Below, one piece after another: positions 6,614 to 10,993 of a DNA stretch of 64,000 nucleotides. Under the pieces are notes generated by a model. It was not told the origin of the DNA, did no database searches, and was given only the letters and a program-made list of their open reading frames with translations. Source of the stretch: Candidatus Bathyanammoxibius amoris (lineage in GTDB: Bacteria; Planctomycetota; Brocadiia; Brocadiales; Bathyanammoxibiaceae). The translations under genes were made by a program, and so were the position numbers. The first letter of the stretch is position 1; every line of letters begins with the position of its first letter. The stretch lies in contig JAMXCW010000001.1 of the NCBI GenBank assembly GCA_024451685.1, forward strand, positions 186,001 to 250,000. Direction: 5' to 3'.

Positions 6614-7345
6614 TTAACGGATTCGGCTGCTCAGTATCTCCGGTTCTCCCCTGACACGGCAGCCCTCCAGATGGGCCCTGGCTGTCTCGCCAAGGCGTTT
6701 GAGTGTGTCAGGAGGATAAGGGACGACTTTTAACATGTTAGAGTCAAGACAATTTGTGGGCCTGAAGGGCTGTAAGACATACCTTTTCGCACCCTGCAGC
6801 GAGCAGGCAATGTCTTTTATCTCTTCTTCTCCCAGGTAGGAAGGGCACACTGTCGTGCGGAATTCGTGCTCCAGCCCACTCTCGATTATTACGTTTATAC
6901 TGCGCCTGATATCTTGCACATTGCCCTGCCATTTGGTGACTTCCCGGTAACTTTCGTCTTTGAGCGGGGCCTTTACGTCCATGGCTATGCAGTCAAGCAG
7001 TCCATCTCTAATAAACTCTTCCAGTAAGTCCGGGTTTGTGCCGTTAGTGTCCAGTTTTACCTTGAGACGCATGTCTTTCAGCTTCTTTAGCAGTTCCTTG
7101 AGGCCGGTGTGGAGGGTGGGTTCTCCGCCTGAGATAACAACGCCGTCTATCCACGTGTTATTTTTCAGGTAGCTAATCACGGACTCAAGTAGTATTGTGT
7201 CCATGTCTTCCGCCGGGTTGACAAGATGGGGTGAGTGGCAGTAGGTGCAACGGAAGTTGCAGCCCGGCAGGAAGATGACGGCGCTTATCATGCCTTCCCA
7301 TTCGATGAGGCTGCTTTTTATGAACCCTTTTATCTGTACGGCCAT
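6614..7345 (-). CDS. nrdG: Anaerobic ribonucleotide reductase activating protein (radical SAM)
   Basis: A 243-residue radical SAM enzyme. The [4Fe-4S] motif C29-x3-C33-x2-C36 ('GCNFRCTYC') is intact, and a glycine-rich 'ISGGEPTLH' SAM-binding segment follows. NrdG cleaves S-adenosylmethionine and makes the glycyl radical on NrdD. The size and N-terminus ('GFIKSSLIEWEGMISAVIFLPGC') fit the subfamily that accompanies archaeal/Thermotoga-type NrdD. GGAGGAA lies eight bases before the ATG. It ends a same-strand run that begins with nrdD and has two small genes between. The pairing supports its role, although its presumed partner lacks the usual radical glycine (see nrdD), so it may act on another enzyme. 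Confidence 0.85.
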   Translation of the reverse strand: MAVQIKGFIKSSLIEWEGMISAVIFLPGCNFRCTYCHSPHLVNPAEDMDTILLESVISYLKNNTWIDGVVISGGEPTLHTGLKELLKKLKDMRLKVKLDTNGTNPDLLEEFIRDGLLDCIAMDVKAPLKDESYREVTKWQGNVQDIRRSINVIIESGLEHEFRTTVCPSYLGEEEIKDIACSLQGAKRYVLQPFRPTNCLDSNMLKVVPYPPDTLKRLGETARAHLEGCRVRGEPEILSSRIR

Positions 7346-7396: not shown

Positions 7397-7717
7397 CTAT
7401 TGTGCCCGGGCCAGCTCCCGCTGCTTGACCATAATCGGCTGGTCGTAAGAGAATACGTTACCCATCCCCGGTGACGCATAGTAGACGTTGGCAAAACCGT
7501 CGAGACCTATCCCGTGAAGCTTTATCTTATAATGTGCGCCGGAGGTCCGGGGAAGACTGCGCAGGTAGTCTAACAGTCCTTCGGCTACGCTGTCGACGTT
7601 TACCGTGTCCGGGATTGGATTGTACAGGTATAGGCCAATCAGGAAATCGGTCTCATAAGAGGTAATCTTTTTTTCCAACTCCATCAACCTTTCTGATGGT
7701 TCATCCGTTCTCCACAT
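7397..7717 (-). CDS. Conserved-looking small protein between nrdD and nrdG, function unknown
   Basis: A 106-residue soluble protein not recognised as any named family. AAGGAG lies eight bases before the ATG. The N-terminal half is a charged helix-like stretch ('EPSERLMELEKKITSYETDFLIGLYLY'), followed by 'NPIPDTVNVDSVAEGLLDYLRSLPR' and a Gly/Tyr-rich C-terminal part. It has no cysteines, signal peptide or membrane segment. It does not contain an RxxGY-type glycyl radical motif, so it is not an obvious replacement for the altered NrdD C-terminus. It lies 51 bp before nrdG and 44 bp after the preceding small gene, within the nrd cluster. The gene call rests on the ribosome binding site and the tight packing. 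Confidence 0.6.
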   Translation of the reverse strand: MWRTDEPSERLMELEKKITSYETDFLIGLYLYNPIPDTVNVDSVAEGLLDYLRSLPRTSGAHYKIKLHGIGLDGFANVYYASPGMGNVFSYDQPIMVKQRELARAQ

Positions 7718-7761: not shown

Positions 7762-7980
7762 CTATGCCCTGTCAATGTATCTTCTTGCTTCACCCACCAG
7801 TTCGCCCCTTGCCTTCTCGGCGGCTGCGTTTGTTTCGCAAAAGCGATGGAAGGATAGCAGGGTGGGCCCCGATTCTCTACGGGTCACGGTTATTGTTATC
7901 ATCCCGGGTGCGTGTGGCTCCTGGACCCTGATTCCGTAACCCTTGTAGGCCTTTGTGGTTTGTGACAAATTTTCGTCCAT
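7762..7980 (-). CDS. Small hypothetical protein downstream of nrdD
   Basis: A 72-residue protein of unknown function. The start chosen is the internal ATG giving MDENLSQTTKAYKG, because GGAGAAG lies at normal distance before it; a longer reading from 8022 adds 14 Arg-rich residues but has no good ribosome binding site. The sequence has a central beta-like stretch ('GMITITVTRRESG') and an Ala/Glu/Arg-rich helix at the end. It has one cysteine and no membrane segment. It lies 83 bp after nrdD on the same strand. Confidence 0.5.
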   Translation of the reverse strand: MDENLSQTTKAYKGYGIRVQEPHAPGMITITVTRRESGPTLLSFHRFCETNAAAEKARGELVGEARRYIDRA

Positions 7981-8063
7981 TACTGGTCTTCTCCGGTGGC
8001 GAGACGGTTTCAGTCTTGCCATGTAAATCTCGCCGTTCAGACAACTTTATTGCTTGTGTTTTG

Positions 8064-10454
8064 CTATACCAGCTCCACGGGTGATTCGTTCCTGAATCTC
8101 TCTACCAGGGTCCTTACTCTAGACGCGTTCCAGTTGCTCAGTCTGCTTTCATAGTTGTCTGACCTCTCGACACCACGTATGTTGTACGCGTCGCAGTGGT
8201 CACACTGGTCTGAAATCCCGGGTGTGAGGCGATTGCACACGGTGCATATGGTGAATTCAGGGGATATAGTAACTTGTGCCGCCTGCGTGTTCTTGAAGGT
8301 CTTTTTCACCAGGTTCATGATGCTCGTGGCAGGGGGCCTTTCTTCTCCACAAAACGCGTGGATGATGGCGCCGGACTCTATCATGGTGTGGAATTTGCTC
8401 TGCAGGATTATCCTGGTCAGCATGTCAATCGGGGCGTCCGGTCTGAGATGGACGCTGTTCGTGTAGTAGTACTCGTCTCTCTCCATGTCGCCTTTTACAA
8501 GTTCCCTTGCCTGTGGGAATTTCTTCACGTCTACCTTTGCGAGTCTTCTGGACGCGCTTTCTGCGGGTGACTCCTCCAGTGAGAATTTCAGGCCGTGTTT
8601 CTTTCCCTCTTCTTTTACCTTCTTGTACATGGAGGCAATTATCCTCAGCCCCTGTCTCAGGGGTTCTTCGCCCTCGTGGAGTTCCTTGTCCATCATATAC
8701 TGCAGACACTCGTTGAGGCCGAGTATGCCGACGATGTAGGTGGATTTTTCGAGGTCTACATAGGGACGGCCGTCTTTGGCTATCCGCCCTATCTGCCAGA
8801 GTGGCATCTCCGGGCTTGACATGAGCTTGGCGATAAATGCCTTTTTCTGGAGATGTGCCTTGATGCACACTTGTATGGTGTTGTCTATCTCTTTGTAAAG
8901 TCTTTCCCAGTCGCCCTTTCCCGCCCTGTAAGCGGCCTGGGGGAGATTGACCGTGACGTTCTGGAAACCGCAGAAGCGCATGCTCTCCGGGTTGGTTATC
9001 ATGATGTTTTCTTCTATAGTAGTCCGGAGCCGGCAGCAGGCAGAGAGCGTTACCTCGTCTCTGTCGAACACGAAATACGGTACGCCGTTTTCGCTGGCTA
9101 TCTGACAGGCATACTCCAGTATCTCATACTGTTTAGGGTCATCCAGGGTGTCTTGGTTTATGTGGAGGTCGCATTTCGGGAATGCGAACATATGGCCGTG
9201 GCAGTCACCGGCTCGCCATACGTCCAGCATGGCCATGGTGAAGCGGCGGGCCGTTTCAGAGTAGTCGCCGTACGTTTTTCCCGTGTACTTCCCTTCCGAA
9301 CCTATGGCGGGTATGTCTTTCATGTAGTTTGGCACGCCTGTGTGGATGTTAAAGTCCAGGAACAGGGTCTGGCCTCCGCGTGAGAAGGCGCTCTGGGAGC
9401 AACTGAAGATGAGGTGCTGGGCCTCCTGAAGGAGTTCCTTCTGGCTCATGTCCTCCAGGTACGGGGCGTACATGATGTTTATGTAGCCTATGCCGAGGGC
9501 TCCCGCGTAGTATGCCTGCATGGAGGCCAGGAAGGTGTTCAGGTGGCCGGTGAGGGTGCGGGCGTGTTTTGCGGGGGCTGAGGAGGTGTCAAGGTTGTCG
9601 AGCTGGAGACCGTATTTCTTCAGGTACTCCAGCGAATGTGAGGAGCAGTAAACCCTTGTCGGATAACCCAGGTCGTGGATGTGTACCGCGCCGGAGAGGT
9701 GTTTCTCGGCCACGTCACTGGAGTATACCTCCTGGAGTGCGTACTGCTTCAGTGTGTTTTCGGCGATAGAGAGGTTTATCGCCTCCGGGTTATTGGTGGC
9801 GATGTTGCTGTTCTCGTTGACCTTTGAGAATATGAGCTGGTCCAGGTCGTACTTGGGCATACCGATCGTGGCCTGCTTCTTCAACTGGGTGTCGTAACCC
9901 CTCTCGAAGAGTTCGTTGTCTACGAGCTCTCTTAGCAGGGTGGTAGAGATGCGGTGTATACCTGAGGCAAAGACCCTTTTTTCGACCACATTGGCTATCT
10001 CTACCGCCTCGTCTATCAGGATGCCGGCCTCTTTCTCCAAGGCTAACGCTATCTTGCCCTTGTCCCACGGGGAGCTCTCGTCGTGGAGGTCTGTGTCTAC
10101 CATCAGGGCTGCGTCTGTCGTATCACGGCCCTTGGTCTTCTTTTTTCTGACCTTAAGTGCCTCTCTGTGGTGCGCCCTCTTGTCCCTGTAGCGGATATAG
10201 GCCTTTGCCGTCTTGGCATGGCCGGTTTTTATGAGTACGTCTTCTACCATATCCTGTATGTCTTCTATGCCCGGGAGGTCCCCGTTGGAGTTCTTTTTAA
10301 GTGAGAAGGCGACCACCTCGGCCAGCTCATCGGCCATCCTCCTGTCATCGCCGCCTACGGCGTACGCTGCCTTGAAGATGGCATCGGCTATCTTTTTTAC
10401 GTTAAACGGTACCAACCTGCCGTCGCGTTTTCTTACGGTCTCTATGGGGCTCAC
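8064..10454 (-). CDS. nrdD: Anaerobic (class III) ribonucleoside-triphosphate reductase, radical glycine position altered
   Basis: A 796-residue NrdD. It begins with an ATP-cone domain ('VRKRDGRLVPFNVKKIADAIFKA') and continues with the barrel domain of the archaeal/Thermotoga type ('YCSSHSLEYLKKYG', 'RGGQTLFLDFNI', 'TLSACCRLRT', 'MRFCGFQNVTVNLPQAAY'). The enzyme makes deoxyribonucleotides under anoxic conditions. The C-terminal zinc cysteines C737, C740, C751 and C754 are present. In this family the 13th residue after the last zinc cysteine is the radical glycine, in a motif like R-I-x-G-Y-x-S-R; here the matching stretch is R-S-D-N-Y-E-S-R with Asn767 (codon at 8154-8156). Flanking residues still align, so a frameshift is unlikely. 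The start is GTG behind AAAGGAAG. It heads the cluster ending in nrdG, with nrdR nearby. Confidence 0.88.
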   Translation of the reverse strand: MSPIETVRKRDGRLVPFNVKKIADAIFKAAYAVGGDDRRMADELAEVVAFSLKKNSNGDLPGIEDIQDMVEDVLIKTGHAKTAKAYIRYRDKRAHHREALKVRKKKTKGRDTTDAALMVDTDLHDESSPWDKGKIALALEKEAGILIDEAVEIANVVEKRVFASGIHRISTTLLRELVDNELFERGYDTQLKKQATIGMPKYDLDQLIFSKVNENSNIATNNPEAINLSIAENTLKQYALQEVYSSDVAEKHLSGAVHIHDLGYPTRVYCSSHSLEYLKKYGLQLDNLDTSSAPAKHARTLTGHLNTFLASMQAYYAGALGIGYINIMYAPYLEDMSQKELLQEAQHLIFSCSQSAFSRGGQTLFLDFNIHTGVPNYMKDIPAIGSEGKYTGKTYGDYSETARRFTMAMLDVWRAGDCHGHMFAFPKCDLHINQDTLDDPKQYEILEYACQIASENGVPYFVFDRDEVTLSACCRLRTTIEENIMITNPESMRFCGFQNVTVNLPQAAYRAGKGDWERLYKEIDNTIQVCIKAHLQKKAFIAKLMSSPEMPLWQIGRIAKDGRPYVDLEKSTYIVGILGLNECLQYMMDKELHEGEEPLRQGLRIIASMYKKVKEEGKKHGLKFSLEESPAESASRRLAKVDVKKFPQARELVKGDMERDEYYYTNSVHLRPDAPIDMLTRIILQSKFHTMIESGAIIHAFCGEERPPATSIMNLVKKTFKNTQAAQVTISPEFTICTVCNRLTPGISDQCDHCDAYNIRGVERSDNYESRLSNWNASRVRTLVERFRNESPVELV

Positions 10455-10474: not shown

Positions 10475-10858
10475 TTACTTGATTGGCAGTTCTACCCGCG
10501 TTTGTTCTCCGCCTGGCATACGGCCTGTATCACGTTCTTTGTGATGAGAAAAGCTGCAAATGGGACAGATTAAATGGCTACTACAGGGTACGCCCGGATG
10601 GAACACGTTATTAAGAGGCCCATACCGATGGTACCACTCACACTCCATCTCATAGGCCTCTTTGGGGGAGATGGCGTAGTCAAACCAGACGTACCTGTAG
10701 TAGCCGTTATTTTTATGTTTTAACAGGCGTTCTTTCAGATTGCTGTCAGACCTTCCGATGTAATCCGCATGGGTCCCGTCACGGGATAAGACGTACGTGC
10801 CGGGGAAATCCCTCGTTACAACGATGCCGACGTCGTTTAAGTTGTATATCCCATACAT
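10475..10858 (-). CDS. GIY-YIG domain protein
   Basis: A 127-residue protein with a GIY-YIG-type nuclease fold: 'GTYVLSRDG' and 'ADYIGRSD' supply the two GIY/YIG strands, followed by 'NLKERLLKHKNNG' and 'EAYEMECEWYHRYGPLNNVFHPG', which has the usual glutamate region and the N-x-x-x-P-G end. The C-terminus carries a CPIC pair near a further Cys and two His, so a small zinc site is possible. The start is the ATG behind AGGAG rather than the GTG nine bases upstream. It lies 20 bp before nrdD. Such domains occur in DNA repair (UvrC), restriction and homing enzymes; the role here is unknown, and the first motif is a variant of the canonical one. Confidence 0.65.
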   Translation of the reverse strand: MYGIYNLNDVGIVVTRDFPGTYVLSRDGTHADYIGRSDSNLKERLLKHKNNGYYRYVWFDYAISPKEAYEMECEWYHRYGPLNNVFHPGVPCSSHLICPICSFSHHKERDTGRMPGGEQTRVELPIK

Positions 10859-10993
10859 AACTGCCACTCCTGAACGAATGACTTAAATCCCTGACTAAAT
10901 ACGTAGCGCGCGGCCCTGCCAGTCCTATGCGCAGCTTCGGATGGCTTGCATCGCACGTACGATGCGAACCCGCACGCTGCAGCTCTTCCCTCC

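Follow-up and report, generated by a model that had tools for sequence, protein, structure and literature searches.

Known glycyl-radical systems

Glycyl-radical enzymes are defined by a radical carried on their own chain. In canonical class III ribonucleotide reductase (RNR), the activase NrdG makes the radical on a C-terminal glycine, and the loop that bears it is inserted in the barrel, where it abuts the finger loop (PMC4493059, PMC9669993), for which a double-cysteine motif has been described in class III RNR (PMC9669993). A 2024 survey of enzymes with a residue other than glycine at the radical position detected only Gly-encoding members among the class III RNRs (PMC11528403). A 2021 paper on spare parts gives YfiD and Y06I, both for pyruvate formate-lyase (PFL), as the sole validated spare parts, others being speculated (PMC8683613). 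Moreover, the PflB-G734A variant is active in vivo with GrcA and inactive without GrcA (PMC12338860). The open-access literature, with most subscription papers outside its coverage, yielded no description of a split, autonomous or glycine-less class III RNR.

The nrdD locus

The window, i.e., the whole stretch of 64,000 nucleotides that was analysed, comes from Candidatus Bathyanammoxibius amoris and contains the following features around nrdD.

6614..7345, minus strand: nrdG2, radical-SAM activase, proposed to charge a separate subunit (TIGR02495 191.9 bits, cut-off 131.2; adjacency in 38 of 45 glycine-less nrdD loci)
7397..7717, minus strand: 106-aa ORF between nrdD and nrdG, no assigned function (phmmer matches in members of family f1, the family of the window; conserved across f1 and found only there)
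7762..8022, minus strand: 86-aa ORF between nrdD and nrdG (relatives in the same genus only)
8064..10454, minus strand: nrdD, class III RNR catalytic subunit without the radical glycine (Pfam/NCBIfam matches, alignment to PDB 8p23, relatives)
8091..8186, minus strand: degenerate remnant of a cis glycyl-radical loop, residues 757-788 (pairwise identity within f1 is 0.51 here and 0.89 for the core; in most pairs dN of the tail is 3-5 times that of the core)
8154..8156, minus strand: AAC codon for Asn767 at the radical-glycine position (sequence, 8p23 alignment, relatives)
8193..8246, minus strand: Zn ribbon C737-C740-C751-C754 (all four Cys invariant in 78 of 78 aligned NrdDs)
9033..9038, minus strand: finger-loop cysteines C473-C474 (SACCR), thiyl-radical site (43/43 and 35/35 sequences; motif as in PMC9669993)
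11030..11497, minus strand: nrdR, RNR transcriptional repressor, upstream of nrdD (TIGR00244, 205 bits)

The nrdD reading frame encodes 796 aa from a GTG start, and the protein consists of an ATP-cone, a barrel and a Zn ribbon. Its barrel is of the class III type, with matches to PF13597 (NRDD; E 5e-117, 392 bits) and TIGR02487 (375 bits, cut-off 326). Other hallmarks of class III are also present, namely the SACCR finger-loop cysteines, which are invariant in the 78 aligned sequences irrespective of a cis glycine, the C-terminal CxxC...CxxC Zn ribbon, and an NrdG activase encoded nearby. The radical glycine is absent from the same chain, where Asn767 takes its place, and sits in a separate 131-aa protein.

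An earlier note on this DNA, made from the letters alone, had claimed that Asn767 stands in place of the radical glycine while the four zinc cysteines are kept, and the reading frame and codon, the 8p23 alignment and the alignment of relatives all bear this out. In the phmmer alignment to the solved NrdD 8p23, '...IDKLQRITGYLVGTTDRWNSGKLAELHDR' pairs with '...IRGVERSDNYESRLSNWNASRVRTLVERF', and Asn767 falls on the radical glycine; the glycine at another position for which the note had left room did not appear in any alignment. A search for the DNA pattern of the GY[YF]x4NWN motif through the whole 2.07-Mb genome gave one occurrence, outside nrdD, and this search together with the alignments to 8p23 and to relatives rules out a shifted, hidden glycine in NrdD. 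A sequencing or assembly error at the AAC codon is likewise ruled out, since the position is replaced otherwise, deleted or lost in congeners and related families. The predicted structure of NrdD has a mean pLDDT of 62 and is too poor for reading its tail.

The activase gene is intact, as the note had stated (NrdG2, TIGR02495 at 192 bits, CxxxCxxC present), and an nrdG with CxxxCxxC lies downstream of nrdD on the same strand in 38 of the 45 glycine-less nrdD loci. The two small ORFs that the note had placed between nrdD and nrdG are real in relatives, with different reach: the 106-aa ORF is kept across f1 and has no Pfam or NCBIfam match, and the 86-aa ORF is confined to the genus. Between nrdR and nrdD lies a 130-aa ORF (window 10475-10867), GIY-YIG-like by eye, which among the nrdD loci searched occurs only here and in G004. 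The search for a second reductase that the note had proposed found a class II match in the same genome (G000:C6:25643-27058), the class being assigned from size and family; class III activity is therefore not forced by essentiality.

The free-standing loop protein

The note had also suggested looking for a free-standing 'spare part' with an RxxGY motif, and one is present in the same genome. The 131-aa protein is encoded on another contig, outside the window (G000:C7:68815-69210, plus strand), and ends TRIVGYYSRVSNWNKSKLGELKDR...; its loop segment is the sole match besides nrdD in a whole-genome search with the NRDD family. The last third of the protein, LYSVTRIVGYYSRVSNWNKSKLGELKDR, is a glycyl-radical loop of class III that lacks the Zn ribbon, with the radical glycine at Gly101 and a small N-terminal domain before the loop. 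The loop is recognised by PF13597 and TIGR02487, as is NrdD, and the rest of the chain is unmatched in Pfam and NCBIfam. Similar to GrcA/YfiD, it is small, free-standing and has the glycyl-radical motif intact (TRIVGYYSR..NWNKSK); the PFL-type domain PF01228 of GrcA/YfiD gave no match in it even at E up to 1. The glycine is kept in all 62 free-standing copies collected. PF01228 has no match across the genome either, so that NrdD is the only candidate partner seen for the 131-aa protein, and another glycyl-radical enzyme of the same genome is ruled out as its partner on this ground. Contamination as the source of the gene is also ruled out, since it lies on an 84-kb contig in the order thiD - gene - LOG-like that is common to the other f1 genomes with the gene.

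The AlphaFold model of the 131-aa protein has a confident N-terminal domain (residues ~20-90, pLDDT 91-96), followed by a hairpin and a helix for the loop. Foldseek of this domain against the PDB gave no match at E <= 0.001, and the best VIA-align Z score, 5.0, stands among tied unrelated rows. As modelled, the domain may be a docking module. Among known phage and plasmid records, P0001 has no match, and there is one weak partial match with a viral relative (MT835493, E 0.01).

Distribution in relatives

Homologues of the free-standing protein occur in 57 of the 59 genomes of the order Candidatus Brocadiales, and the matching loci include Brocadia, Kuenenia, Jettenia, Loosdrechtia and Scalindua. 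Beyond the order, homologues are found in other Planctomycetota, Elusimicrobia, one Auribacterota and ~60 viral contigs. In the alignment of relatives, the radical-glycine column holds Gly in all 35 motif-keeping NrdDs and S, E, G, P, D, C, N and others in the 43 motif-less ones. Genomes whose NrdD loop is drifted, deleted or truncated nearly always have the free-standing protein; in families with an intact cis loop it is mostly absent. Among the genomes without the cis loop, G126 (73% complete) has no detectable small protein.

Brocadiales without the cis glycine: The earlier note had advised looking for the same substitution in related genomes, and the position proves to be variable. NrdDs of f1 have N, S, D or a chance G in an eroded flanking motif, those of f3 (Scalindua-type) have one residue deleted, and f4 and f2 no longer have the motif. 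Two genomes, G006 and G009, have neither a cis glycine nor a detected free-standing gene, and thiD, its syntenic neighbour, was also not found in them; assembly gaps are the likely explanation, the thiD search having run without a positive control.

Brocadiaceae-type (f5; Brocadia, Kuenenia): The RIVGYFSRINNWNKSK loop is retained in NrdD itself, alongside a free-standing protein. In one f5 genome, G039, Asp stands at the radical-glycine position and the motif is otherwise mostly intact. The Brocadiaceae genomes of L099, L100, L101 and L098 encode, in addition, a divergent second free-standing glycyl-radical protein. The second copy at L100 may be of prophage origin, because its loop region is the same as that of the copy on viral contig L235.

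Other Planctomycetota (f41, f47, f72, f88, f100): The loop past the Zn ribbon is unrecognisable, and a free-standing loop protein of ~100-125 aa is present.

Elusimicrobia: A cis-glycine NrdD and the free-standing protein are both present.

Family f57 (G134, G199; L345:2521-4920, L346:2544-4961): NrdD has Asp in an otherwise intact loop (TRIADYFSR). A free-standing loop protein is absent from f57, the ~2.5 kb downstream of nrdD lack NrdG, and f57 is perhaps a different system.

Auribacterota: In the metagenome-assembled genome JAFGBE010000110.1 (L222, L399), the glycine-less nrdD, a 98-aa loop protein, a 91-aa glutaredoxin-like protein and nrdG are contiguous on one strand. The glutaredoxin-like gene (L222:1223-1498) lies between the loop protein and nrdG, and it would fit a double-cysteine class III enzyme reduced by thioredoxin or glutaredoxin.

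Viral contigs: The free-standing protein is encoded on ~60 IMG/VR contigs (L232-L291, e.g., L245:3001-3447 and L254:2728-3165), nearly all without a detected NrdD, and some of these genes adjoin apparent portal or terminase genes. A search for NrdD in 50 viral records gave matches that extend past the loop only in IMGVR_UViG_3300031566_000011 and in one record with a cis-glycine NrdD; the remaining records, which may be fragments, carry the loop protein alone. The NrdD of IMGVR_UViG_3300031566_000011, an 81.6-kb contig (L407:1480-4206), contains long intervening intein-like insertions and ends '...CENCNSGDVEGIEYYQ', just past the Zn ribbon. This contig has its own 97-aa loop protein ~8 kb from NrdD, beside GroES, single-strand binding and replication genes. 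The viral loop protein is possibly a phage gene that drives the split reductase of the host.

Selection and co-occurrence

In the larger lineages without a cis glycine (f1, f3 and f41), pairwise identity is 0.84-0.90 in the NrdD core and 0.30-0.65 in the tail; in f5, with the cis glycine, it is 0.93 in the core and 0.94 in the tail. Core dN/dS in the lineages without a cis glycine is ~0.06-0.13 in most pairs with unsaturated dS. In most of their pairs the dN of the tail is 3-5 times that of the core, and in one close pair far more; cis-glycine pairs show no such rise. Moreover, none of the 43 sampled glycine-less NrdDs has lost the finger-loop CCR or any of the four zinc cysteines. With its core under purifying selection, these cysteines invariant and nrdG retained, the glycine-less NrdD looks like a working enzyme that was freed from constraint on its own loop only. 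Judged from these sequences, the loss of the glycine is not decay. The earlier note had offered an inactive enzyme, another radical carrier, or a regulatory or decaying copy; another carrier fits, and inactivity and decay are contradicted by core dN/dS, the conserved CCR and zinc cysteines, and nrdG.

The free-standing gene is present in 41 genomes and absent from 5 where the cis loop is lost, and present in 27 and absent from 19 where it is kept (Fisher p 0.0017), counts that treat genomes as units, which are not independent, and that include among the 41 the genome G008, to be set aside as its NrdD is cut at a contig end. By family, the gene is present in 8 and absent from 3 with the loop lost, and present in 2 and absent from 10 with the loop kept (p 0.012). 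On the NrdD tree the state changes ~8 times by parsimony, and losses recur. A phylogenetically independent contrast has 3 pairs on well-supported branches, too few to reach significance. The case for a split enzyme rests on the missing piece, the relatives, linkage and selection together, and not on the Fisher p value.

A probable two-part class III reductase and rival explanations

As far as comparison of sequences can tell, NrdD, NrdG and the separate glycyl-radical protein very probably form a two-part class III reductase that acts in trans. NrdD would supply the nucleotide-binding barrel, the finger-loop cysteines and the Zn ribbon, and the 131-aa protein would supply the glycyl-radical loop with Gly101. 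Since the loop is on the 131-aa protein, NrdG would have to charge it there, and the loop would have to enter the barrel of NrdD. NrdG would take the H atom from Gly101, and the charged protein would put its loop into the barrel where the C-terminal loop was lost. The docked loop would make the thiyl radical at C473/C474 and start catalysis in trans, for which PflB-G734A of E. coli, rescued by GrcA in vivo, is a precedent (PMC12338860). Docking, radical transfer and catalytic activity of this pair are predicted, as is ribonucleotide reduction with a glycyl radical by the NrdD of the window; co-occurrence, linkage and selection suggest that the 131-aa protein activates its partner in trans.

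The small protein would be a spare part beside a cis-glycine NrdD, as in anammox Brocadiaceae and Elusimicrobia, and would be obligatory where that glycine is lost. A plausible series, in its presumed direction, would run from a cis loop only, through a cis loop with a free-standing copy as spare part (f5), to loss of the cis loop with the copy obligatory (f1, f3, f4 and f41). It is likely that an obligate two-subunit class III RNR, with the radical on a small exchangeable subunit, arose repeatedly from the spare-part stage, and that phages bring the radical subunit only and use the NrdD of the host.

The small protein might instead be purely a spare part that repairs O2-damaged NrdD as YfiD does for PFL, with the glycine-less NrdD inactive or redundant beside the class II enzyme. 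Repair would fit anammox Brocadiaceae and Elusimicrobia, which have both a cis-glycine NrdD and the small protein, and redundancy would fit the class II reductase in the genome of the window; even so, this is unlikely, because the glycine-less lineages have no intact cis loop to repair, yet purifying selection on their NrdD core is strong and they retain nrdG. For the cis-glycine lineages themselves the spare-part reading is likely and is compatible with the two-part explanation. A pseudo-enzyme or a copy in decay, which might sense dNTPs through the ATP-cone, is a very improbable reading of NrdD; the class II enzyme could serve as another source of deoxynucleotides, but core dN/dS of 0.06-0.13 and the retention of CCR, the zinc cysteines and the adjacent nrdG in glycine-less lineages speak against it.

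It is hardly credible that the radical resides on Asn767 or another residue of NrdD, as in the aminoacyl radical enzymes with Ala, Ser or Thr in the PFL superfamily. Such enzymes are described (PMC11528403), and in G039 and f57 an Asp sits in a motif that is otherwise largely preserved. However, the same survey found class III RNRs encoding Gly only (PMC11528403), the phage NrdD stops before the position, and a conserved replacement residue is absent: a radical on Asn itself is unlikely because column 767 varies freely (S, E, G, P, D, C, N) or is deleted. Service of the small protein to another glycyl-radical enzyme, its co-occurrence with glycine-less NrdD being incidental, has an equally slight chance of being right. 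Its gene is indeed unlinked to nrdD in most genomes, but its loop is of the class III type (PF13597, TIGR02487), PF01228 has no match in the genome, and the loop-protein gene sits between nrdD and nrdG in Auribacterota.

Comparison with known systems

If true, the two-part reductase would be a natural case of a radical-bearing piece that has become a permanent, exchangeable subunit of a DNA-synthesis enzyme. Questions that such a split opens to experiment are the way NrdG finds its target, the route by which a loop from outside gets into the barrel, and the advantage of splitting, for which one speculative idea is that the part cleaved by O2 is cheap to replace. It also suggests that phages of such hosts may carry an RNR gene missed by present annotation.

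Similar to the 131-aa protein, GrcA/YfiD of E. coli and Y06I of phage T4 are small and free-standing, and combine an N-terminal part with a glycyl-radical loop at the C-terminus (PMC8683613, PMC12338860). They are charged by the radical-SAM activase of their partner and can activate a full-length glycine-less partner (PMC8683613, PMC12338860), and the same is proposed here. In contrast to theirs, the loop of the 131-aa protein belongs to the class III RNR type (RIVGY..NWNKSK) and gives no PF01228 match, and the partner NrdD has lost its glycine for good, so that the part would be obligatory and not a repair. Canonical NrdD/NrdG systems (T4, E. coli, T. maritima, PDB 8p23) share the ATP-cone, barrel, double-cysteine finger loop, Zn ribbon and NrdG2 activase, whereas here the glycyl radical would not be on the catalytic chain and the loop is a separate gene product. 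In aminoacyl radical enzymes of the PFL superfamily the radical glycine is likewise replaced, by Ala, Ser or Thr; here the position is unconstrained, and the glycine would be supplied in trans (PMC11528403). Split phage RNR genes with introns, inteins and homing endonucleases also encode the RNR chain in pieces, but these elements interrupt one chain (PMC3653736), whereas the loop described here is a detached module with its own N-terminal domain and is widespread in cellular genomes.
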